Source: Geopsychrobacter electrodiphilus DSM 16401
Lineage (GTDB): Bacteria; Desulfobacterota; Desulfuromonadia; Desulfuromonadales; Geopsychrobacteraceae
Reading direction: 5' to 3'
Assembly (NCBI RefSeq): GCF_000384395.1
Contig: NZ_ARWE01000001.1
Coordinates: forward strand, 4,128,501 to 4,192,500
DNA: 64,000 bases
The position numbers and the translations under genes are program-made. Positions 14,455-26,352 of this stretch are shown one piece after another; positions within the stretch are counted from its first letter, which is position 1; each line of letters opens with the position of its first letter. The notes under the pieces were generated by a model. That model was not told the origin of the DNA. It ran no database searches and was given only the letters and a program-made list of their open reading frames with translations.

Positions 14455-15255
14455 CTAATTCAACTGCTGAGGATGGCTGAAGATTTCGAAAGTATTGCCG
14501 CGCAGGTAGCCGACCAGGGTGATGCCGGCCTGTTCGCAGAGGTCGATGGCTTTGTCGGTGGGGGAGGTGCGTGAGGCGATCAGGCCGATTCCGAGGCGCG
14601 CGGCCTTGGCGACCATTTCAGTCGAGACCCGTCCGGAGGTGACCAGCATTCTGCCGTGAAGTTCAATTTTTTTGAACAGAGCTTCGCCGGCCAGGCGGTC
14701 AAAGGTGTTATGGCGACCGATATCTTCGGCATAGAGCAACAGGTGGTCACCGTCACCGATGGCGGCAGAATGGATACCGCCGTGGCTGCGATACTGTTCG
14801 GCCTGCTCCTGCAACTCTTTCATCAGACGGAACAGCCCCGCGCTCTTGTAGGTGTGCGGCTGTTGCCGGGAAAGATCGAGCAGATTCTGGGGAAGATTGT
14901 AGGAGATCCCGGTGCCGCAGCCGGATGTCAGGGTCGGTTGCAACTGTTGCGGCAAGTCGTTGCGGATGCGGAGTTCGGCCAGACCAAACTCGGAGCAGAT
15001 CCCCATGCTGAGGATATCGTCAAGGCTGTTGATGAACCCCTGCAGCAACAGAAATCCGGCGACCAGAAAATTGAGCTGCTGCGGGGAACAAACCAGGGTC
15101 GCCAGATCACGATCATTGATTCTGAGGCGCAGGGGAAATTCCTCGACCACTCCGCGTTCCGCCTCTTCCCTTTGTCCCTTTGCAACCCGGATAATTTTGC
15201 GCGCGGCTCGTCCTACCATGCTTCTCACTTCTCTGGCTCTCTGATTAGCGCTCAT
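14455..15255 (-). CDS. fdhD: Formate dehydrogenase accessory sulfurtransferase FdhD
   Basis: About 266 residues from ATG 15255 (an alternative is 15219). The frame stays open upstream to 15441 only because it runs through the intergenic repeat at 15264-15365, so that part is excluded. Motifs are the sulfur-carrying cysteine region TSGCGTG and the conserved AEDIGRHNTFDRLAGEAL and VTSGRVSTEMVAKA. FdhD passes sulfur from a cysteine desulfurase to the Mo/W bis-pterin cofactor of formate dehydrogenases. No formate dehydrogenase is nearby; it follows bamI on the same strand, so a role in maturing BamB or another tungstoenzyme here is possible. Confidence 0.9.
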   Translation of the reverse strand: MSANQRAREVRSMVGRAARKIIRVAKGQREEAERGVVEEFPLRLRINDRDLATLVCSPQQLNFLVAGFLLLQGFINSLDDILSMGICSEFGLAELRIRNDLPQQLQPTLTSGCGTGISYNLPQNLLDLSRQQPHTYKSAGLFRLMKELQEQAEQYRSHGGIHSAAIGDGDHLLLYAEDIGRHNTFDRLAGEALFKKIELHGRMLVTSGRVSTEMVAKAARLGIGLIASRTSPTDKAIDLCEQAGITLVGYLRGNTFEIFSHPQQLN

Positions 15256-15263
15256 ATTCTGTT

Positions 15264-15365
15264 GACCCTTCTCCCAGAGGGAGAAGGTGGCCGAAGGCCG
15301 GATGAGGGGATGGCTTTTTGAGCGATCCCCCTCACCCCGAACCTCTCCTCCTGGGAGAGGGGAAT
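15264..15365. repeat. MITE-like intergenic repeat between bamI and fdhD
   Basis: Two facing hairpins: CTTCTCCCAGAGGGAGAAG at the left and CTCTCCTCCTGGGAGAG at the right, with complementary inner parts (GGATGAGGGGAT and ATCCCCCTCA). This 'CTCTCCC-GGGAGAG' type of intergenic repeat is widespread in proteobacteria. It artificially extends the fdhD reading frame. Confidence 0.7.
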
Positions 15366-15410
15366 CGATATTTGGAGGGAAATTGATCCTAGCCCATTCT
15401 GTTTTTGATT

Positions 15411-16043
15411 TTAAGACTTGCCCGAACAGCCTCCTCCGCACGACGGGACAGTTGCATCAGGAGGCGTCAGCAACGATTCAGTTAAAACGTACGCGGCCTG
15501 CAGCGCCGAGGTGGGGCAGAGCGGAAAACATTCTTTGCAGTCCCAGCATTCCTGCATGGCGATCTCCGGTAAAAATGCGATCTCGCGTTTGGCGCCGCGG
15601 TCGAAAAAGCTGATGGCGTGCTTCTGCTTGACCTCGGCGCAGTATCTCACACATAGACCGCAGAGAATACAGAACGAAGCTTCCTGCTCAAACCGGTTGC
15701 GGTCTGCGCCATACTGTCTGGCCAATTCCTGCAGGGGTTCGGAGTCGGGAGCGTGCGAGAGCATCTGCTCCAGCAGCAGCTTGCGGATCTTGTCGAGCTT
15801 TTCAGTTTTGGTCCTGATGACCATCCCGTTTTCGACCGGATACTGACAGGCGGCGACCAGATTGGAGCGACCGTTCGCATCCGCCTCAACGGTGCAGACT
15901 CGGCAGGCCCCGTAGGGTGCCAGTTGTGCATGATCGCAAACGGTGGGAATCGTGATCCCCAGGCTGCGCGCCGCCACCAGAACGGTCGTCCCTTCTTCGG
16001 CAGTTATCTGTTTTCCATCGATCTGCAGGCTGATTTTATTCAT
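15411..16043 (-). CDS. bamI: BamI: 2Fe-2S/4Fe-4S subunit of class II benzoyl-CoA reductase (NuoG N-terminus-like)
   Basis: 210 residues. An N-terminal plant-type 2Fe-2S domain (CDHAQLAPYGACRVC and ACQYP) is followed by a NuoG-like helical region and cluster motifs CILCGLCVRYC and CWDCKECFPLCP. It corresponds to the N-terminal part of complex I NuoG or the NADH-hydrogenase small module, without the large catalytic domain. Its ATG overlaps the bamH stop (TAATG). With BamG and BamH it forms the pyridine-nucleotide/ferredoxin electron module of the Bam complex. The tail (CGGGCSG) is cysteine/glycine-rich. Confidence 0.88.
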   Translation of the reverse strand: MNKISLQIDGKQITAEEGTTVLVAARSLGITIPTVCDHAQLAPYGACRVCTVEADANGRSNLVAACQYPVENGMVIRTKTEKLDKIRKLLLEQMLSHAPDSEPLQELARQYGADRNRFEQEASFCILCGLCVRYCAEVKQKHAISFFDRGAKREIAFLPEIAMQECWDCKECFPLCPTSALQAAYVLTESLLTPPDATVPSCGGGCSGKS

Positions 16044-17950
16044 TATATGGCCCTTGCTTCTTCAGGAATGGCATCTGGGACGGGGACCCCGGAAATCTTG
16101 CTCACTGCGCCGAAGACCGCCGGGCAGGCTTCAAGGCAGCCGCCGCACTTGGTGCACTTCTCTTGCAGGATGACGTGAATCCGCTTTTTACCCCCTTCGA
16201 TCGCTTCGGCCGGGCATTTCCGGAAACAGGCTCCGCAGCCCTTGCACTTCTCCGGTGCGATATGAAAGGCAATCAACGCCTTGCACGAGAGGGATGGATA
16301 GCGCTTCTCGTTAATATGCGCCTCATACTCTTCGCGGAAATGGTTCAGGGTACTCAAGACCGGGTTGGGTGCGGTCTTCCCTAAGGCGCACATGGAAGAA
16401 CCCTTTGTCGTCTCGGCCAACTCCAGCAATAGTTCGAGATCTCCTGGGCGGCCCAACCCTTTGGTCATATTGGTCAGGATCTTCAGCATCTGCCGGATCC
16501 CTTCGCGGCAGGGTGTACATTTGCCGCAGGACTCGTCACTCAAAAAGGCCAGGAAGTAGCGGGCGATATCGACCAGGCAGGTATCCTCATCCATGACGAT
16601 CATCCCGCCGGAACCCATCATCGCGCCCGCCTTGCTCAGTTCGTCAAAGTCGACCTTGATATCCAGCAGTTTTTCCGGCAGACAACCGCCTGAGGGTCCG
16701 CCGGTCTGCACCGCCTTGAACTTTTTGCCGTCGGGCACCCCGCCGCCGATCTTGAAGATGATGTCGCGCATCGAGGCCCCCATCGGCACCTCGACCAGGC
16801 CGGTGTTATTGACCTTGCCGACCAGCGAGAAGATCTTGGTCCCCTTGCTGCTCTCCGTACCGATGGCGCTGAAGAAAGCGGCGCCCTTATTGATGATCAT
16901 CGGGATATTGGCCCAGGTTTCGACATTATTGATATTGGTTGGTTTTCCCCACAAGCCTTTGATCGCCGGGAAGGGTGGTCGTGCATTCGGTTCGCCCGCC
17001 TTCCCCTCCAGTGAGTTGAGCAATGAAGTCTCTTCACCACAGATAAAGGCACCGGCGCCGCGATGGACCTTGACCGTGAAATCGAAGCCCGAACCGAGAA
17101 TATTCTGACCGAGCAGGCCGGCTTCCTCTGCCTTTTTGATCGCGACCGTCAGGTTGGCGACCGCCAGCGGATACTCCTGCCGCACGTAGACGTAGCCTTC
17201 ATGCGCGCCGATGGCGTAGGCGCCGATCATCAAGCCCTCAAGCACAGCAAAGGGGTTGCCTTCCATCACCGAGCGGTCCATGTAGGCGCCCGGATCCCCT
17301 TCATCGCAGTTGACCACCACATACTTCTGTTCGCCGGGGGCATTGCGCGCAAAATCCCATTTGATTCCAGAGGGAAAGCCGGCACCGCCACGGCCGCGCA
17401 ACTTGGCATCCTTGACTTCACCAACGACCTGTTCGGGCGTCATCTGAAAGAGGACCTTGGCGAGGGCCTGATAACCTTCGACGGCGAGATAATCCTCCAG
17501 ACTCCTGGGGTCGATCTTGCGGTTGGAGCCGAGCACCAGGCGCTGCTGATTCTTGTAGAATGGGATATCGTCTTCGCGGGTCGCTTTTTCACCGTTGTTG
17601 GGATCGACATAGAGCAGCCGTTCGACAATCCGCTTGCCGATGATCGTCTCGCTGATGATTTCGGCGATATCCTCCGGCTGAACCCTGAGGTAGCAGATCC
17701 CCTGCGGGTAAATAACCACAATCGGGCCCTGCTCACAAAAGCCGTGGCAACCGGTGCGTCTGGAGACCACTTCGCTTGAAACCCCCTGTTTTTCGATTTC
17801 ACGCTCAAGGGCGGCGGCAACCTTGCCACTCCCGGTGGCCATACAGGCGCTGCCGGAACAGAGCGTAATACAGGGTTTATCGGGATCTCGCTGGGAGAGG
17901 ATCTCCTGGCGAAACTCTTCCAATGCGGTAACTGATGCTATCCTCGACAT
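16043..17950 (-). CDS. bamH: BamH: NuoF-like flavin/NAD subunit of class II benzoyl-CoA reductase
   Basis: 635 residues. It begins with a thioredoxin-like 2Fe-2S domain (CITLCSGSACMATG and TGCHGFCEQGP), then the FMN/NADH-binding NuoF core (GRGGAGFPSGIKW; FICGEETSLLNSLEG), the N3-type cluster motif (ESCGKCTPCREG) and two C-terminal 4Fe-4S motifs (CKGCGACFRKCP, CTKCGGCLEACP). This is the NADH-interacting flavoprotein of the proposed electron-bifurcating Bam complex. AAGGGAA precedes the ATG. All cluster ligands appear intact. Confidence 0.9.
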   Translation of the reverse strand: MSRIASVTALEEFRQEILSQRDPDKPCITLCSGSACMATGSGKVAAALEREIEKQGVSSEVVSRRTGCHGFCEQGPIVVIYPQGICYLRVQPEDIAEIISETIIGKRIVERLLYVDPNNGEKATREDDIPFYKNQQRLVLGSNRKIDPRSLEDYLAVEGYQALAKVLFQMTPEQVVGEVKDAKLRGRGGAGFPSGIKWDFARNAPGEQKYVVVNCDEGDPGAYMDRSVMEGNPFAVLEGLMIGAYAIGAHEGYVYVRQEYPLAVANLTVAIKKAEEAGLLGQNILGSGFDFTVKVHRGAGAFICGEETSLLNSLEGKAGEPNARPPFPAIKGLWGKPTNINNVETWANIPMIINKGAAFFSAIGTESSKGTKIFSLVGKVNNTGLVEVPMGASMRDIIFKIGGGVPDGKKFKAVQTGGPSGGCLPEKLLDIKVDFDELSKAGAMMGSGGMIVMDEDTCLVDIARYFLAFLSDESCGKCTPCREGIRQMLKILTNMTKGLGRPGDLELLLELAETTKGSSMCALGKTAPNPVLSTLNHFREEYEAHINEKRYPSLSCKALIAFHIAPEKCKGCGACFRKCPAEAIEGGKKRIHVILQEKCTKCGGCLEACPAVFGAVSKISGVPVPDAIPEEARAI

Positions 17951-17959
17951 AATTTTCCC

Positions 17960-18454
17960 TTACTCACAGGCACATTTTTTCAGATCTTCGGCGGCCTCAG
18001 GCTCGGCCAATTTCTGCAAAACCTCGGCCGTTTCGTCCTGCTTGACGTTGCCATGGATTTCGCCATCGACGACCATCACCGGGCCTAAGGCACAGCAGCC
18101 GAGGCAGCTGACGGTCTCGATGCTGAAGTTCAGGTCGGGGTCGGTTTCGCCGGGGGCGACGCCCGTCACTTCCCTGACCGTGTCGAGAATCCGCTCCGCA
18201 CCGCGCACATGGCAGGCCGTGCCGACACAGACGTGGACCTCATGCTTCCCCTTGGGACTCAGGCTGAAGTGTTTGTAGAAGGTGGTGATATGCTGGATGC
18301 GGCTCATGGGCACCGCCAGCTTCTCGCCGACCCTGGTCAGCGCTTCCTTGGGCAGCCAATGGTTTTCGCTCTGGATGTCGAGCAATATCTGGATCAGCGC
18401 GCTGGCTTCGCCCTGATGCTGGTCTATAATCTGATCAATTTTGCCGATATCCAT
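17960..18454 (-). CDS. bamG: BamG: NuoE-like 2Fe-2S subunit of class II benzoyl-CoA reductase
   Basis: 164 residues, the length of NuoE/HndA proteins. An N-terminal helical bundle is followed by a thioredoxin-like fold with four cluster cysteines (CVGTACHVRGAERIL and CLGCCALGP). It would pass electrons between BamH flavin and the other clusters. AAAGGAC precedes the ATG. The stop lies 9 bases before bamH. Confidence 0.9.
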   Translation of the reverse strand: MDIGKIDQIIDQHQGEASALIQILLDIQSENHWLPKEALTRVGEKLAVPMSRIQHITTFYKHFSLSPKGKHEVHVCVGTACHVRGAERILDTVREVTGVAPGETDPDLNFSIETVSCLGCCALGPVMVVDGEIHGNVKQDETAEVLQKLAEPEAAEDLKKCACE

Positions 18455-18491: not shown

Positions 18492-18530
18492 GAGGTCAAC
18501 CCTTCTCCTTTGAAGGGAAGAGTTGACCTC
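18492..18530 (-). other. Intercistronic hairpin overlapping the bamF stop
   Basis: GAGGTCAAC (18492-18500) pairs perfectly with GTTGACCTC (18522-18530), enclosing a second possible CCCTTC/GAAGGG stem. It covers the bamF stop codon and lies before bamG. It lacks a T-tract, so mRNA processing or attenuation is more likely than full termination. Confidence 0.55.
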
Positions 18531-19299
18531 AAGAAGCAGCCAGGGCGTAGCGTTTTAATTCTGCGTCGAAACGGACCAGGCCGAGGCGTGAAGACATGCC
18601 GAGATGACGTGATACCTCGGCCGCTTCCAGGCCAAGCTCCCTGGCGATATCCCGTGCAGAAATGGCCTTCTCCTGCAGCAGCAGCATGATCTGGCTGACG
18701 ATCAGTTTATCCAGCAGCAGCTCATCAAACAGGCGCTTGAACTTGCTGCTGGCGAAATACTCGTCGTACTTCTCCTGAGCGTCGAAGCGCATCCGCAACT
18801 TCTCCCGCTCCACCATCTTGATGTAGGGGATCAGCTTGTTTAAGGCCTTCAGTTTGAGCTTGAGGATGTCGGGCTCAAGACCTTCCCCTTTGCCAAGGGG
18901 GCCGAACTCTTTGAGCTGCTTGCCGAAACTGTTCATTATTTCGGCATAACGGGTGCCTTCAGAGGTGGCGATCCATTCAAGCCTCAGCCGTTCGGGGGTG
19001 ATCCCGATTGCCTCGAGCAGTTTACGACAGAGGTGCATATTGAACAGCGCGTCGTAATTGCCCTCGGTGACGTAATGGCATTCACCCAGCCAGCAACCAC
19101 CGATAAACACGCCATCCGCGCCATTGGAAAATGCGCGCAGGATAAAAGAGATGTCAACCCGGCCGGTGCACATGACCCGGATAATCTTTGTTTCAGTTGT
19201 GTATTGTTGTCTGGAAACTCCAGACAGGTCCGCAGCCCCGTATGCTCACCAGGTGCACAAAAATCCGATGACGCTGGGCTTGTATTCAAAACCGGCCAT
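18529..19299 (-). CDS. bamF: BamF: MvhD-type iron-sulfur subunit, selenoprotein (UGA at codon 18)
   Basis: 256 residues when the in-frame TGA at 19246-19248 is read as selenocysteine. Start ATG 19299 has AAAGGAGG upstream. The N-terminus reads FLCTW-U-AYGAADLSG, where most MvhD proteins have CNWCSYGGADL: Sec replaces a cluster cysteine. IIRVMCTGRVD and GCWLGECHY complete the 2Fe-2S ligand set. A perfect 8-bp hairpin 19 bases after the TGA fits a bacterial SECIS. Without recoding the protein would begin only at Met 19173 and lose two cluster ligands. The C-terminal 70 residues look like a winged helix (ISARDIARELGLEAAEVSRHL). MvhD proteins shuttle electrons to HdrA, here BamE. Confidence 0.9.
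19208..19248 (-). promoter_or_regulatory. bSECIS candidate and recoded UGA of bamF
   Basis: The UGA codon is at 19246-19248 (minus strand). After 19 bases comes TGTCTGGA-GTT-TCCAGACA (19208-19226), a perfect 8-bp stem with a 3-base loop starting in G. Distance and G-containing loop fit SelB-dependent SECIS elements. The hairpin lies inside the coding region and encodes the conserved LSGVSRQ segment. Confidence 0.75.
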
Positions 19300-19326
19300 G
19301 GTTACCTCCTTTCCAGATCAATCATT

Positions 19327-22300
19327 TCAGTGAGAGTGAGTTTCTTCATAGTCCGGGATCGCCCCGTCAATCTGGGCGAAAATTTCATCATCAGTGTAGT
19401 GCTTCAGATAGATCGCCCCGGTCGGGCACTTGGCGTTGCACAGACCGTCACCCTTGCACAGCACCGGCTCAACCCGCGCCTTTTTGCCTTTTGGGGTGTC
19501 GATAAATGTGATCGCGTTATAGCTGCAGCAGCTGATACAGGCTCCGCATGAGATACAGGCCTCTTCATTGACGTCGCAGACCGCGCCCGAGGCGGTGACC
19601 GAATCACCGGCGAGGATACCGACTGCGCGGCCTGCCGCACCCAGAGCCTGGCTGATGGTTTCGTCGAGATGTTTCGGATAGTGCGCGGTTCCGCACATGA
19701 AAACCCCGTCGGAGGCGAAATCGACCGGCCGCAGCTTGACGTGGGCTTCCTGAAAGAAGCCGTCGGGGTTCATTGAGACCTTGAAGAGTTTGGCCAGCTC
19801 GCGGGTACTCTCCGCCGGCACCACCGCCGCCGCCAGGGCGACCAGATCGGCCTCCAGCTCCAGCTTCTGTCCCAGCACCAGATCCGGCACGGTGATCTTC
19901 AGCTTGTCGCCGGCCGCTTCGACCACCGGCTTGTTCTCCGGCTCGAAACGGATGAACTTGACGTCGAGCTCGGCCGCTTCGCGGTAGAAATCTTCCTTGA
20001 AGCCGTAGGTGCGCATATCACGGAACAGGATGTGGATATCCATGGCCGGGTTCTGCTTTTTGAGTTTCAGGGCGTTCTTGATCGATTGGCCGCAACAGAC
20101 CCGACTGCAGTAGTTGCGACCTTCTTCACGACAGCCGACGCACTGGATCATCACCAGACTCTCTGCGGCTGCGATCCTGGGGTTCTGCGCGACAATCTCT
20201 CCTTCGAGCTCCAACTGGGTCAGCACCCGCTCATCGCTGCCGTAAAGGTATTCGGTGGGGCGGTACTCTTCGGCGCCGGTCGCAATGATGGCGATGCCGT
20301 GGGCGATCTGCCTTGCGCGGCCGGCCGTAGTGACTGTGGTCTCGAAATTGCCGATATATCCGGCGACTTCGTTGATGCTCGAATCGGTCAGGACGTGGAT
20401 CGACTGATGCCGATAAACCTTGCGCACCAAGGCATGCAACTGGGCCTGAACACTCATACCATCGAGGGTGTAATGGATTTTTCTGGCCATCCCGCCCAGA
20501 TCAGAAGCCTGTTCAATCAGATAAATCTCGAAGCCCTGTTCGGCCATGTTCAAGGCGCTGGTCATGCCCGCCAGGCCGCCGCCGACGACCAGGGCGACCT
20601 TGTTGACCGGCAGTTCAAACTCTTGCAAGGGCTGCAGATGCGCGGCACGCGCCACCGACATGCGGATAATATCCTTGGCCTTCTGGGTGGCATTCTCCTT
20701 GTCTTTGGAGTGGACCCAGGCACAGTGCTCGCGGATATTGGCGAACTCGAAGAAATATTGATTGATCCCCGCTTCACGGCAGGTATCGCGGAACAGCGGC
20801 TCATGGGTGCGCGGTGTACAGGCCGCCAGCACCACGCGGTTGAGACCTTTGGCCACAATCGCATCCGTGATCTGCTGCGCGTTTTCGGTCGAGCAGGCGA
20901 ACAGATTCTCCCCCGCCCAGGAGACATTCTTCAGGGTCGAGGCGTATTCAATCACCTCTGGAATATTCACTACCCGACCGATGTTGGCACCGCAGTGGCA
21001 CACCACCACCCCGATCTTGAGCTCCTCCTGTGATACGTCCCGCTCCGGCGGATAGAGGCGTTCACGGCTCAGTTTATCGCGCCGATAGTTCAGCAGCTGA
21101 CCACAGAGGGCGTCGGCACCGCTGGCGGTGACCACTGACTCGGGGATATCCATCGGCCCCTGAAAGGCGCCGCTGACGAAGATCCCCTTGCGGGTCGTAG
21201 CTATGGGATTGGCCGGGTCGATCTTGCAGAACCCCTGGTCATTAAGTTCAATATCGAAGATTTTCGCGAGCTTTAGCGCATCGGCGGGCGGATTCAGTCC
21301 GACCGACAACACCACCAGATCAAACTCCTCCTCCTTGACCCCCTCATCAAAGGTCGAGTAGCGGATGGTTACGTTGTTGTTTTCGGGGATCTCGCGGCCG
21401 ATGGTGACATAGCTGCGGATGAAGCGCACGTCATCAAGCTTTTCGGCGCGTTGGTAGAAGCGCTCGAAATCCTTGCCATAGGCGCGGATATCGTTATGAA
21501 AGATGGTGGCATCGAGATCCGGATAATGATCCTTGGAGAGGATCACCTGCTTCTGGGTGTAGGTGCAGCAGACCGCCGAACAGTAAGAGTTGCCGCCGGG
21601 AATCACCTGGCGTGAGCCGACGCACTGGATCCAGGCGATCCGATGCGGGTGTTTATGGTCCGAAGGGCGCTGAATCTCCCCTTCGTAGGGGCCGGTGGAG
21701 CAGAGAATGCGTTCGAATTCGAGGCTGGTGACGACATTCTGCATGCGTCCGTAGCCGTAATCACCGCGCAGCTTCGGATTGAAGATGTCGAAGCCGGGGG
21801 AGAGCAGGATCGCGCCCACCTCCAGTTCGAACTTCTCCGGCTTCTGGTGCAGGTCGATCGCATTGGTCTTGCATACGCCGACGCAGATCTTGCACTTCCC
21901 CTCTTTAAGATAGAGACAGGTCTCCGGGTCAACGTAGGTGACCAGCGGCTCTGCCTGCGAAAAATAGATATGCACCGACTTATTTTCCGAGAGCCCCTGA
22001 TTGAAGGGATCGGGGATCTTGACCGGGCAGTAGTCGACACAGATGTTACAGCCGGTGCACTTGTCTTCGATAATGTAGCGCGGTTTTTTGGTCAGGCTGA
22101 CCTTGAAATTGCCCGCTTCGCCTGAGACGCTGTCGACCTCGGTGTAGGTGATAATCTCGATATTGGGATGGCGCGAACACTCGATAAATTTCGGTGACTC
22201 GATACACATGGAGCAGTCATTGGTGGGGAAGGTCTTGTCCAGCTGCGACATCTTGCCGCCGAGGGAGGGGGACTTATCGACCAGAAACACCCGGAAACCT

Positions 22301-22422
22301 GAATTCGCCAGGTCAAGCGAGGCCTGGATGCCGCTGATGCCGCCGCCGACGATCAGAACATCGCCGCGGTTTCGGTCGGCGAAATGATCTGCCGCGAGTA
22401 CTTCGACTGAATTGCTTGCCAT
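19327..22422 (-). CDS. bamE: BamE: large HdrA-like flavin/iron-sulfur subunit (duplicated HdrA)
   Basis: 1031 residues from ATG 22422 (AAAGGAAG upstream; a 27-residue upstream extension runs into the repeat at 22463 and is rejected). It has two FAD-binding halves: VLIVGGGISGIQASLDLA near the N-terminus and ALVVGGGLAGMTSALNMA near the middle. Ferredoxin motifs are CTGCNICVDYCPVKIPDP in the first half and CISCGACISCCSYNA plus CKGDGLCNAKCP at the end. HdrA is the flavin-bifurcating subunit of heterodisulfide reductases; in Bam it is proposed to link NADH/ferredoxin electrons to ring reduction. All cluster and FAD motifs appear intact. Confidence 0.9.
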   Translation of the reverse strand: MASNSVEVLAADHFADRNRGDVLIVGGGISGIQASLDLANSGFRVFLVDKSPSLGGKMSQLDKTFPTNDCSMCIESPKFIECSRHPNIEIITYTEVDSVSGEAGNFKVSLTKKPRYIIEDKCTGCNICVDYCPVKIPDPFNQGLSENKSVHIYFSQAEPLVTYVDPETCLYLKEGKCKICVGVCKTNAIDLHQKPEKFELEVGAILLSPGFDIFNPKLRGDYGYGRMQNVVTSLEFERILCSTGPYEGEIQRPSDHKHPHRIAWIQCVGSRQVIPGGNSYCSAVCCTYTQKQVILSKDHYPDLDATIFHNDIRAYGKDFERFYQRAEKLDDVRFIRSYVTIGREIPENNNVTIRYSTFDEGVKEEEFDLVVLSVGLNPPADALKLAKIFDIELNDQGFCKIDPANPIATTRKGIFVSGAFQGPMDIPESVVTASGADALCGQLLNYRRDKLSRERLYPPERDVSQEELKIGVVVCHCGANIGRVVNIPEVIEYASTLKNVSWAGENLFACSTENAQQITDAIVAKGLNRVVLAACTPRTHEPLFRDTCREAGINQYFFEFANIREHCAWVHSKDKENATQKAKDIIRMSVARAAHLQPLQEFELPVNKVALVVGGGLAGMTSALNMAEQGFEIYLIEQASDLGGMARKIHYTLDGMSVQAQLHALVRKVYRHQSIHVLTDSSINEVAGYIGNFETTVTTAGRARQIAHGIAIIATGAEEYRPTEYLYGSDERVLTQLELEGEIVAQNPRIAAAESLVMIQCVGCREEGRNYCSRVCCGQSIKNALKLKKQNPAMDIHILFRDMRTYGFKEDFYREAAELDVKFIRFEPENKPVVEAAGDKLKITVPDLVLGQKLELEADLVALAAAVVPAESTRELAKLFKVSMNPDGFFQEAHVKLRPVDFASDGVFMCGTAHYPKHLDETISQALGAAGRAVGILAGDSVTASGAVCDVNEEACISCGACISCCSYNAITFIDTPKGKKARVEPVLCKGDGLCNAKCPTGAIYLKHYTDDEIFAQIDGAIPDYEETHSH

Positions 22423-22462
22423 GATTCTTCCTTTATCAGAACTATTCAGCACTACGGTGAAG

Positions 22463-22539
22463 GCATGCGGTCTGCAACTATTGCCTCCGTCCAACGTTAG
22501 CACTTAACTTCTCTCCGCCAACAGCCACAGCCCGCCTGC
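22463..22539. repeat. Long-hairpin intergenic repeat, copy 1
   Basis: Lies between bamD and bamE. The conserved centre (GTCCAACGTTAGCACTTAAC) is flanked by imperfectly complementary arms (outer GCA-GCGG-CTG pairing with CAG-CCGC-TGC). The same centre with different but paired arms occurs at 49757 and 55129. All three read the centre on the + strand, although bam genes are transcribed from the - strand. Confidence 0.65.
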
Positions 22540-22584: not shown

Positions 22585-23736
22585 TTAAAGCAGAGCCTGA
22601 ATAATTTCCGTGAGATCTTTGATCTCCAACGCTTCACTCTCGTCCAGGCCCAGACAGCTGTCGGTGAAGTTGGTGATGCAATAGGGGCAGGAGGTCACCA
22701 GCACCTCGGCTCCGACGGCCACCGCCTGTCTCACACGCAGATCGGAGAAGCGATCCTCCTTGGGGGTTTCCATCCAGATGTGACCGCCGCCGCCGCCACA
22801 ACAGAGGCTGCTCTCGCGCGAATCGGCCATCTCATTCAAGGTCAGCCCGGGGATCTGCTGCAGCAGGTCGCGCGGGGCATCGTAGATGCCGTTATGTCGG
22901 CCGAGGTAGCAGGGATCGTGATAGGTGACCGTTTTGGGGTACTCGCCGGTCAGCTTGAGGCGGCCGGTTTTTACCAGCTCGGCGATATATTCGGAGATGA
23001 AAACCACCTCGAAGTTGACCATGAATTCGGGGTATTCGTTCTTGAAGCTGTGATAGCAGTGGGGTGAGGAGACCAGAACCTTCTTCACACCCTGATCGAT
23101 AAAGGCCTTGATATTATCCTTGGCCAGGCGTTTGAACAGATCTTCATTGCCGGTCTTGCGGATGCTTTCGCCACAGCAGCTCTCCTTGCTGCCGAGAATG
23201 CCGAAATCGACCCCGGCCTTGTTCAGAATGGCGGTGGTGGCGGCGGCGACTTCACGCATACGCGGATCGTAGCTGAGGTAACAGCCGGTGAAATAGAGGA
23301 TTTCCATCCCCTCGGCATAGGGCTTGACTGAAAGCTCCTTGGCCCAGTCGGCGCGTTTATCACGATCGCCGCCGAGGGAGTTGCCTTCAGAGGTTAGACT
23401 GGCGATGATATTCTGGATTGGCGCGATATTGCCCGGATAGACGTCATACTCGGCACCGAGTTTGCGCAGGGCGACCCCGGCTTCGATCTGGTTCACGCCA
23501 CGCGGGCAGCGCTGAACGCAGGTGCCGCAGGTCGTGCAGCGCCACATCTCTTCCTGGTCAATCTCGGTCAAACCGAAGGTCGCCTGGCGGATGATCTTGC
23601 GCATACTGAAATCGCGCACCCGGTTCCAGGGGCAGACCGCATCGCACAAGCCGCACTGGTAGCAGTACTTGAACGAGTCGCCACCATTCTCTTTGATGAC
23701 CTCGATGATTTCATTTTCGGGGGCTACAGTTTCCAC
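22585..23736 (-). CDS. bamD: BamD: HdrC-HdrB-like iron-sulfur subunit of class II benzoyl-CoA reductase
   Basis: 383 residues. It begins with two 4Fe-4S motifs (CYQCGLCDAVCPWN, CTTCGTCVQRCP), the HdrC part, followed by two CCG domains (GSKESCCGES and SSLCCGGGGGH), the HdrB part that binds non-cubane clusters. The GTG start at 23736 has AGGTGGGA upstream. This fused HdrCB protein is the expected electron relay between the HdrA-like BamE and the catalytic BamBC. No residues appear missing. Confidence 0.9.
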   Translation of the reverse strand: METVAPENEIIEVIKENGGDSFKYCYQCGLCDAVCPWNRVRDFSMRKIIRQATFGLTEIDQEEMWRCTTCGTCVQRCPRGVNQIEAGVALRKLGAEYDVYPGNIAPIQNIIASLTSEGNSLGGDRDKRADWAKELSVKPYAEGMEILYFTGCYLSYDPRMREVAAATTAILNKAGVDFGILGSKESCCGESIRKTGNEDLFKRLAKDNIKAFIDQGVKKVLVSSPHCYHSFKNEYPEFMVNFEVVFISEYIAELVKTGRLKLTGEYPKTVTYHDPCYLGRHNGIYDAPRDLLQQIPGLTLNEMADSRESSLCCGGGGGHIWMETPKEDRFSDLRVRQAVAVGAEVLVTSCPYCITNFTDSCLGLDESEALEIKDLTEIIQALL

Positions 23737-23791: not shown

Positions 23792-24334
23792 TCACTTCTT
23801 TTCCTTGGCCAGCTGCGCAACCATGTCGGCGACCTTGTCGAGGCCATGCTTGTCGACCAGGGATTGCAGGCCGGTCTCGATCTCTTCCGGGTTCGGCTCT
23901 TCTTCGTCGATCTCTACTTCCCGTTCTTCATAGGTCAGGGCGTCAACCATGCACCACTTGACGCACAGGGGTTCATCCTCTCCTTCGCACATGTCGCATT
24001 TCAGCGGCAGTCCGGAATCGGGTTCCTTGAACTCATCGCGCGACGGGCAGGCCGCCCGACAGAAGACACACTCGTCGTATTCTTTGCCGTCGATGGTGTA
24101 TTTGTCGCGTCCTGCACATTCGGCCGCCGCATACTCGCCGGCGTAGACCGGGACATAGACATCCCTGATCGGTTCACGCGTCACCCGGATACGTGAACGC
24201 GCCGGATTATTGCTGCTGTATTTCGGCATCGCGTGAAAGGAGGAGCAGATGACCTCGCAAGCACGGCAGCCGTTGCATTTATCGATATCAATCTTGATGG
24301 TTTTGATGGTTTTGGTTTTCTTAGGGCTCGTCAC
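23792..24334 (-). CDS. bamC: BamC: ferredoxin-like electron-transfer subunit of class II benzoyl-CoA reductase
   Basis: 180 residues with cysteine motifs for several 4Fe-4S clusters (CNGCRACEVICSSF, CVFCRAACPSRDEF, CDMCEGEDEPLCVKWC). The GTG start at 24334 lies 5 bases after the bamB stop, and its GAAGGA ribosome site sits inside the bamB end, so the two are coupled. BamC forms the active-site complex with BamB and carries electrons to the tungsten enzyme. The C-terminus is acidic (EIDEEEPNPEEIE). Confidence 0.92.
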   Translation of the reverse strand: MTSPKKTKTIKTIKIDIDKCNGCRACEVICSSFHAMPKYSSNNPARSRIRVTREPIRDVYVPVYAGEYAAAECAGRDKYTIDGKEYDECVFCRAACPSRDEFKEPDSGLPLKCDMCEGEDEPLCVKWCMVDALTYEEREVEIDEEEPNPEEIETGLQSLVDKHGLDKVADMVAQLAKEKK

Positions 24335-24339
24335 GGTTT

Positions 24340-26352
24340 TTATCCTTCGACCAGGGTTTCGTTGGAAGACACATCCTCTGCCGGCAGATCATCACCTTCG
24401 GTCAAGATCCCGCGGGCGATAAAATCTGCACACACGTAATCCAGGCCCAGGTCGTGGAGGGATTCTTTGGTCGGGATGCCATCTGCATTCCAGCCTTTGA
24501 ATTTGTAGTAGCCGTCAAGCAGTTGTTCCTCAAGTTCGGGGAAGCGCTTTTTCCAGTGATTCTCCGGTGGCTTTTCATCCTTGCGCCGCATCCCTCTGTT
24601 GGTATTAACCGCTCTCACCAGGGTCCGATATCTTTTGGCGGCTTTTTTGAGCTGTTCTTCATTCATCTCGATTCCGGCACCAGCCGAGATAAACTGCGGA
24701 TAGTTGTGGATGTGATACGGCGGTTTCAAGGGGAAGGATGACAGCCCGGCGCACTGGCCGAGGGCGTCGTCGATATAGTGCATGGTCTCCTGCCAGTCGA
24801 CAATATTGCACGACATTTCGATGGTCGGGTAATAGGGATTTGAGTTTTCGCCGCGGAACTCCCAGTCGAGTAAATACTGCTTGAACTTTTCATCCGGCAC
24901 CTGGACCCAGTCGGAAACGAAGGCTTCGCGCTCCTCCATGGTCGCAAACGGTGCCTGGGGGAACTGTCCTTCAATCTGGGTAATGTTCATCTTCTCGCCG
25001 GTGGCATACATCAGGAAGTAGACCGGATTCAGCATCGAGAGCTTGAGCGGCAGCTGTTCGGTCTTCTTGATGTTGTTGTGCGCATAGGCTTCGGCACCAT
25101 TGCCGATCTCTTTGGCCGCCCAATAGGTGCCATTGGCGAGGATGTCGCCAATCCCTTCGCGACGGACAATTTTATCGAGCAGATAGTAGAACCGGCCCTC
25201 GGTGTCCTCGGGCATGTCAGGGAAATCAGAGGCAGGCAGAATGTCGTTTTCCAGCAGTTCCAGGGCGAAAGCCATCACCTGCGGGGTGGAGAAGCCATCC
25301 ACGCCGTACTCGGTGGCTTTCTGCGCAATGCGCAGACCAAAATCCAGGTCCGAAAAGGCGCCCATGGTGTAGGTAAGTTTGGTGAAGCATTTCATCATGT
25401 AGGTCGGCAGCCCCGGCATCGAGATCGTCGCGCCGCATTCCATCGGGCAGTTGAAGCAACTCACCAGCCGGGTGCGAGCCTTGTCCAGGGTTTCTGTCCA
25501 CTCTTTTTCAATCTCCTCGTTCCAGAAGTCCTTGCGCCTGGTCCGGGAATTGCCCCACATGAAATTTTCGGTATGCCATTTTTCATCATGGACCTTCATC
25601 TCCTGCGGTGAACCCAGCCCGGCCAGAATCGGCATGACGCCGGGGATGGGGTTCCCTTCGCGGTGCTTGATGTAGGCCAGTACCTCGTGGCACAGCTCCA
25701 TGTATTTTGCCGGCTCGGCGATGTTGAGATCCTTGGTGCCGCGCACCACGATTGCCTTGACCCCCTTGTCGCCCATGACCGCGCCTATCCCGCCGCGGCT
25801 GGCGCTTGAGCGGCCCTGCTCGATCGAGGCGTAGAACACCCGGTTTTCACCGGCCATGCCGATGGCCGCGACCTGGGCCTTGGGCTCTTTCAGTTCGGCC
25901 TTGATCAATTCCGCGGTTTCGACCGCGCCCTTGCCGCGCAGATGAGAGGCATCGCGAATCTCGACCTTGTCGTCCTTGATCCACAGATAAACCAGATCGG
26001 GCGACTTGCCGCGCAGGACCACTTTGTCATAACCGGCGTATTTCAATTCCGGCGCCCAGAAGCCGCCCATCATTGAAAAGGCCATTAATTTTGTCTGGGG
26101 GGAGATGGTGGAGACAATCGTCCGGTTGCAGCCGGTGGCGGGGGTGCCGCACAGCAGCCCGGTGCCGAAGATCAGCAGGTTGTCGGGAGAAAAGGCCTCA
26201 ACCTCGGGGGCGACGCGATCCCAGATGAGTTTGGTGTTGGTCCCCAGGCCACCAAGATAGAGTTCGGTGTCTTTCGGATCAGTCGCAACCTTCTCGATGT
26301 TGCCGCGGGTGAGGTCAATCTCTAAATTGAAGCCGGTCTCTGCGTACCTCAT
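24340..26352 (-). CDS. bamB: BamB: tungsten active-site subunit of class II benzoyl-CoA reductase
   Basis: 670 residues, AOR superfamily, close in length to known BamB proteins. It opens MRYAETGFNLEIDLTRGNIE and continues with the cofactor-binding TPATGCNRTIVSTISPQTK and SMMGGFWAPELKYAGYDK. The active-site region has KVHDEKWHTENFMWGNSR and the cluster cysteines VSCFNCPMECG. It reductively dearomatises benzoyl-CoA to cyclohexa-1,5-diene-1-carbonyl-CoA without ATP. It is first in bamB-C-D-E-F-G-H-I; AGGGGTGG precedes the ATG. The full set of partner genes makes BamB much likelier than a generic aldehyde oxidoreductase. Confidence 0.94.
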   Translation of the reverse strand: MRYAETGFNLEIDLTRGNIEKVATDPKDTELYLGGLGTNTKLIWDRVAPEVEAFSPDNLLIFGTGLLCGTPATGCNRTIVSTISPQTKLMAFSMMGGFWAPELKYAGYDKVVLRGKSPDLVYLWIKDDKVEIRDASHLRGKGAVETAELIKAELKEPKAQVAAIGMAGENRVFYASIEQGRSSASRGGIGAVMGDKGVKAIVVRGTKDLNIAEPAKYMELCHEVLAYIKHREGNPIPGVMPILAGLGSPQEMKVHDEKWHTENFMWGNSRTRRKDFWNEEIEKEWTETLDKARTRLVSCFNCPMECGATISMPGLPTYMMKCFTKLTYTMGAFSDLDFGLRIAQKATEYGVDGFSTPQVMAFALELLENDILPASDFPDMPEDTEGRFYYLLDKIVRREGIGDILANGTYWAAKEIGNGAEAYAHNNIKKTEQLPLKLSMLNPVYFLMYATGEKMNITQIEGQFPQAPFATMEEREAFVSDWVQVPDEKFKQYLLDWEFRGENSNPYYPTIEMSCNIVDWQETMHYIDDALGQCAGLSSFPLKPPYHIHNYPQFISAGAGIEMNEEQLKKAAKRYRTLVRAVNTNRGMRRKDEKPPENHWKKRFPELEEQLLDGYYKFKGWNADGIPTKESLHDLGLDYVCADFIARGILTEGDDLPAEDVSSNETLVEG

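Follow-up and report, generated by a model that had tools for sequence, protein, structure and literature searches.

Gene content of the bam operon and the bamF frame

The window analysed here, a stretch of 64,000 nucleotides, carries a complete bamBCDEFGHI gene set on its minus strand. The tungsten active-site subunit BamB (24340-26352) matches benzoyl-CoA reductase 4z3w_A with 1258 bits and the Fe-S subunit BamC (23792-24334) matches 4z3w_E at 2.5e-84, the (BamBC)2 structure having come from G. metallireducens (PMC12096430). The remaining genes were assigned by their domains, namely the HdrBC-like bamD with CCG domains (22585-23736), the HdrA-like bamE (19327-22503), which is a Cys form without in-frame TGA and has an uncertain translation start, bamF, the NuoE-like [2Fe-2S] subunit bamG (17960-18454), the NuoF-like bamH (16043-17950) and the NuoG-N-like ferredoxin subunit bamI (15411-16043). 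Judged from these matches and domains, bamF belongs to a genuine class II (tungsten) benzoyl-CoA reductase operon, in agreement with the identity given to it in an earlier note on this DNA. Directly after bamI lies an fdhD/narQ-type sulfurtransferase gene (14455-15441), plausibly involved in maturation of the BamB tungsten cofactor. An Rfam scan of the operon returned nothing relevant, and when five candidates for other selenoprotein genes in the window were scanned by TGA read-through and Pfam, none had a domain running across an internal TGA.

The bamF frame (18529-19299, minus strand) opens at ATG 19299, passes through a TGA at codon 18 (19248-19246) in the context CTW(U)AYG, and closes at the stop TGA 18531-18529. 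It encodes 256 residues including Sec18, and the minus-strand translation begins MAGFEYKPSVIGFLCTWUAYGAADLSGVSRQQY..., where U is the TGA codon of the CxWU motif. The sequence AGGAGGT (19304-19310) lies close 5' of ATG 19299 and so places the start of translation ahead of codon 18. Gene calling with table 11 yields instead a truncated ORF of 214 aa from ATG 19173 (18529-19173) that drops residues 1-42 and with them the CxWU motif; the AGGAGG ribosome site is strong at ATG 19299, whereas no purine-rich site is visible directly 5' of ATG 19173. Every coordinate that the earlier note gave for the frame from ATG 19299 through the TGA proved accurate, as did its prediction that automatic annotation would start at 19173 and lose the N-terminus. 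Since standard gene calling removes this part of BamF, structural models, proteomics databases and metal inventories miss both the selenocysteine and the CxWC motif. Directly 3' of the bamF stop, ahead of bamG, a long imperfect inverted repeat was read by eye (GAGGTCAACTCTTCCCTTC-AAA-GGAGAAGGGTTGACCTC, 18492-18530), possibly forming a processing or attenuation hairpin inside the operon.

Residues 10-133 of BamF match the whole of the FlpD/MvhD profile PF02662 (positions 1-123 of 123, E=4e-46, 156 bits against a gathering cut-off of 22.3), and this match runs unbroken across the TGA, bearing out the claim of family similarity on both sides of it. BamF is the sole FlpD protein encoded in the genome. 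Frame, profile match, conservation and AlphaFold model (mean pLDDT 89.7) together describe an MvhD/FlpD-type electron-transfer subunit with a C-terminal winged-helix extension, for which the domain search gave weak HTH matches at residues 202-245 and the structural comparison weak matches to winged-helix proteins. The model matches the MvhD structures 5odh_D, 5odc_D, 8rvu_F and 7bkb_F from Methanothermococcus and relatives. Among solved structures, the MvhD of Methanothermococcus thermolithotrophicus (5odc chain D) is one of those nearest in fold to the N-terminal domain, with 48% identity in the structural match, and its five invariant Cys positions align with those of BamF (15, 18, 44, 69 and 74); unlike BamF it has Cys rather than Sec and is without the C-terminal winged helix. 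By homology with MvhD, BamF would hold a [2Fe-2S] cluster in which position 18 would take the role of a cluster cysteine, and Sec18 is probably one of the five invariant Cys-type positions at or near that cluster.

Conservation of codon 18 and of the downstream hairpin

We searched 147 genomes for BamF, the genome of the window among them, and found full-length BamF with TGA at codon 18 in that genome and in 20 others, at 71-79% identity. The terminal stop of these orthologues may be TAA, TAG or TGA, whereas codon 18 is TGA in every one of them. Scanning of genome contigs brought in 64 further loci, and removal of duplicates left 83 distinct homologous loci, in which codon 18 is TGA in 48 and TGC or TGT in 35 (26 BamF-like and nine short MvhD genes); none has TAA, TAG or another residue at this position. 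The earlier note had placed the TGA at a site where MvhD proteins carry a cysteine, which the 35 loci with TGC or TGT bear out, and it had held that homologues stopping at this position would speak against it; among the 83 loci there are none. Residues 8-42 are strongly conserved with the Cys homologues across the TGA, and a bamE match adjoins 47 of the 48 Sec loci on the upstream side. A tblastn search of plasmids gave one match, which was distant. Short MvhD genes in two genomes (G139:C22:357883-358296 and G024:C197:2220-2603) contain one in-frame TGA each and probably encode further Sec-MvhD proteins outside bam.

Downstream of codon 18 lies a hairpin (19208-19226, minus strand) made of TGTCTGGA (19226-19219), the loop GTT (19218-19216) and TCCAGACA (19215-19208). 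The published model of the bacterial SECIS places the loop 16-37 nt after the UGA, with a G in its first two positions (PMC13188914). The bamF hairpin satisfies this model, as it starts 19 nt after the TGA and its apical loop, which begins with G, lies at 27 nt. All 32 distinct Sec sequences form stem pairs 2-5, while 4% of the Cys sequences form pair 4. Loss of pair 1 widens the loop to 5 nt with G in second place, which is still within the published model (PMC13188914). The outer pairs 6 and 8 are formed in just 50-56% of the distinct Sec sequences, and no true double-sided covariation was found in the stem among these sequences, so that support for the element comes from its sequence and from synonymous constraint rather than from compensatory changes.

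This constraint is seen at conserved residues 24-34, where mean codon homozygosity in the Sec genes reaches 0.84, compared with 0.45 over the remainder of the gene; the corresponding values for the Cys genes are 0.42 and 0.47. This contrast between the two sets could partly reflect closer kinship among the Sec genes, for which the other parts of these genes provide an internal control. At Ser29 the codon is TCC in all 44 Sec genes that have Ser there, and the commonest Ser codon accounts for 10 of 26 in the Cys genes. Folding of the single bamF hairpin sequence gave no gain in stability over shuffles (z about -0.9), and only 10% of the Sec genes fold significantly better than their synonymous-codon shuffles; as fold energy is not significant, the case for a SECIS must rest on conservation. 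The SECIS-like hairpin claimed at 19 bases downstream thus holds for its spacing, its core pairs and a synonymous constraint confined to the Sec genes, and finds no significant support in energy by itself. On position, pair conservation and codon usage we assign the hairpin as a conserved, predicted bacterial SECIS under selection beyond the protein code.

Decoding of codon 18 and alternative explanations

The genome of the window is a single contig of 4.24 Mb and 100% complete. The order to which it belongs includes Geothermobacter hydrogeniphilus, which makes the organism one of the Desulfuromonadales in the broad sense. It encodes selA (1185320), selB (1186726) and selD (1188717) in one cluster and a tRNA-Sec with anticodon UCA at 2640671; all four of the genes named in the earlier note, whose absence it had said would count against selenocysteine, are therefore present. 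The selD gene carries one in-frame TGA of its own, followed by a hairpin with a 3-nt loop that also begins GT. Across the homologue set, selB scored above cut-off in 26 of 29 Sec genomes and in 10 of 15 Cys genomes. It was not found over cut-off in the Sec genomes G008, G079 and G163, all of them drafts, and for G079 (L038), which is 99% complete, this may reflect either an assembly gap or an unusual SelB.

We regard it as almost certain that bamF encodes BamF, an MvhD-like [2Fe-2S] electron-transfer subunit of a class II (tungsten) benzoyl-CoA reductase, with UGA codon 18 decoded as selenocysteine by means of the hairpin and SelB. Ribosomes would initiate at ATG 19299 and then meet the UGA, where the hairpin 19 nt downstream would recruit SelB with Sec-tRNA(UCA), and Sec would be inserted at what is the second Cys position of CxWC in the Cys homologues. 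MvhD hands electrons from its own [2Fe-2S] cluster to the FAD of HdrA (PMC6019823), and from this homology we infer that BamF would carry electrons between BamGHI, the module on the NADH side, and BamE, the HdrA-like flavoprotein. Sec18 may perhaps tune the [2Fe-2S] cluster, either in its potential or in how well it resists oxidation.

Were the TGA a true stop, it would end a 17-residue leader peptide and BamF would start internally at ATG 19173, as mechanical ORF calling indeed proposes. Such an arrangement would leave the good ribosome site before 19299 to the leader and the internal start with none visible, would strip the CxWC motif of C15 and position 18, and does not account for conservation across the TGA or for a codon 18 that alternates with Cys alone; we give it very little credence. 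A sequencing error or pseudogene, in which a Cys codon TGC or TGT became TGA, would need only one changed base, yet 47 further distinct loci in independent assemblies have TGA here too, which already refutes this reading, and the remaining frame and the operon are intact and the local codons frozen; its probability is negligible. The unexceptional energy of the hairpin might be taken to mean that the structure is incidental and that the UGA is read by chance or as another residue such as Trp. Against this, the alternative at the site is always Cys and never Trp, the full Sec machinery is present, and the synonymous constraint on the hairpin is absent from the Cys orthologues, so that we find this explanation scarcely credible.

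Relation to known selenoproteins and distribution of Sec-BamF

BamF is part of an enzyme that breaks aromatic rings without oxygen, and Sec in BamF would explain a selenium demand of benzoate-degrading anaerobes. Selenocysteine is reportedly among the cofactors of the benzoyl-CoA reductase complex of G. metallireducens, according to Wischgoll et al. in 2005 and Huwiler et al. in 2019, and the title of the 2004 article by Peters et al. reports Sec proteins in the benzoate metabolism of Desulfococcus multivorans. A census published in 2006 counted Sec-FrhD, of the PF02662 family, among the eight selenoproteins of Geobacter metallireducens and recorded 19 cases overall (PMC1794560), and a selenoproteome review of 2026 lists MvhD/VhuD as a CxxU Sec family (PMC13188914). 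Members of the Sec MvhD/FrhD/VhuD family share with the present BamF the CxxU at the same site and the FlpD domain; BamF differs from them by its C-terminal winged helix and by belonging to a bam operon instead of accompanying a [NiFe] hydrogenase. In G. metallireducens, bamF is Gmet_2083, described as 'hydrogenase, delta subunit; HTH' and induced 27-fold on benzoate (PMC1924859), and it shares both this description and its operon type with the gene reported here. The benzoate-degrading anaerobe D. multivorans likewise has Sec genes, with a Sec mvhD and a Sec BamE each split in two by annotation (dmul_C28840/50 and dmul_C24500/10; PMC5109826), whereas bamE in our window is without an in-frame TGA. 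The earlier note, too, pointed to reports of selenocysteine in the anaerobic benzoate metabolism of related bacteria.

Sec18 of bamF is a case of the established CxxU MvhD/FrhD selenoprotein family, examples of which are on record for relatives including Geobacter metallireducens. With Sec-FrhD known from that species and Sec-MvhD and Sec-BamE from D. multivorans, the finding is correct but ordinary in kind, and since Sec-BamF itself has been recognised in relatives, what is gained is a correct annotation and a clean test of conservation. What is new is the present bamF gene as an instance, together with a survey that points to Sec-BamF-like genes beyond Desulfuromonadales.

In a tree built from 74 proteins after masking of residue 18, two changes suffice to explain the Sec/Cys label, against 22 expected on shuffling. 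Rooted with two short and distant Cys MvhD proteins, the tree suggests, with caution, that Sec was gained once and reverted to Cys once (L111/L112), in a sample that followed query peptide patterns, includes many metagenome bins and leaves other Sec-MvhD lineages absent. It is conceivable, although we hold it to be doubtful, that Sec in BamF-like proteins had essentially one origin, that it later reached several phyla with its SECIS core almost unchanged (Actinomycetota, Planctomycetota, Gemmatimonadota and Rokubacteria, in addition to Desulfuromonadales), that it reverted to Cys at least once, and that some lineages hold both Sec and Cys copies.

Six Sec MvhD genes in Planctomycetota, Gemmatimonadota, Rokubacteria and one unclassified bacterium (L101, L102, L106, L108, L110 and L113) have a BamE-like HdrA upstream but neither a BamG match nor any resemblance to the tail of BamF past residue 195, and apparently represent a related HdrA-MvhD module of another complex. 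Four Geobacter-type assemblies contain two bamF-like genes each (L069/L087, L070/L074, L064/L082 and L079/L092), the Sec copy lying beside bamE and the Cys copy having no bamE or bamG match nearby. These pairs are possible selenium-dependent alternatives and, if Sec and Cys copies are truly kept together, would suggest selenium-dependent switching between isoenzymes. Geotalea daltonii has a bamF1/bamF2 pair (PMC13119186), which may be of the same Sec/Cys kind.
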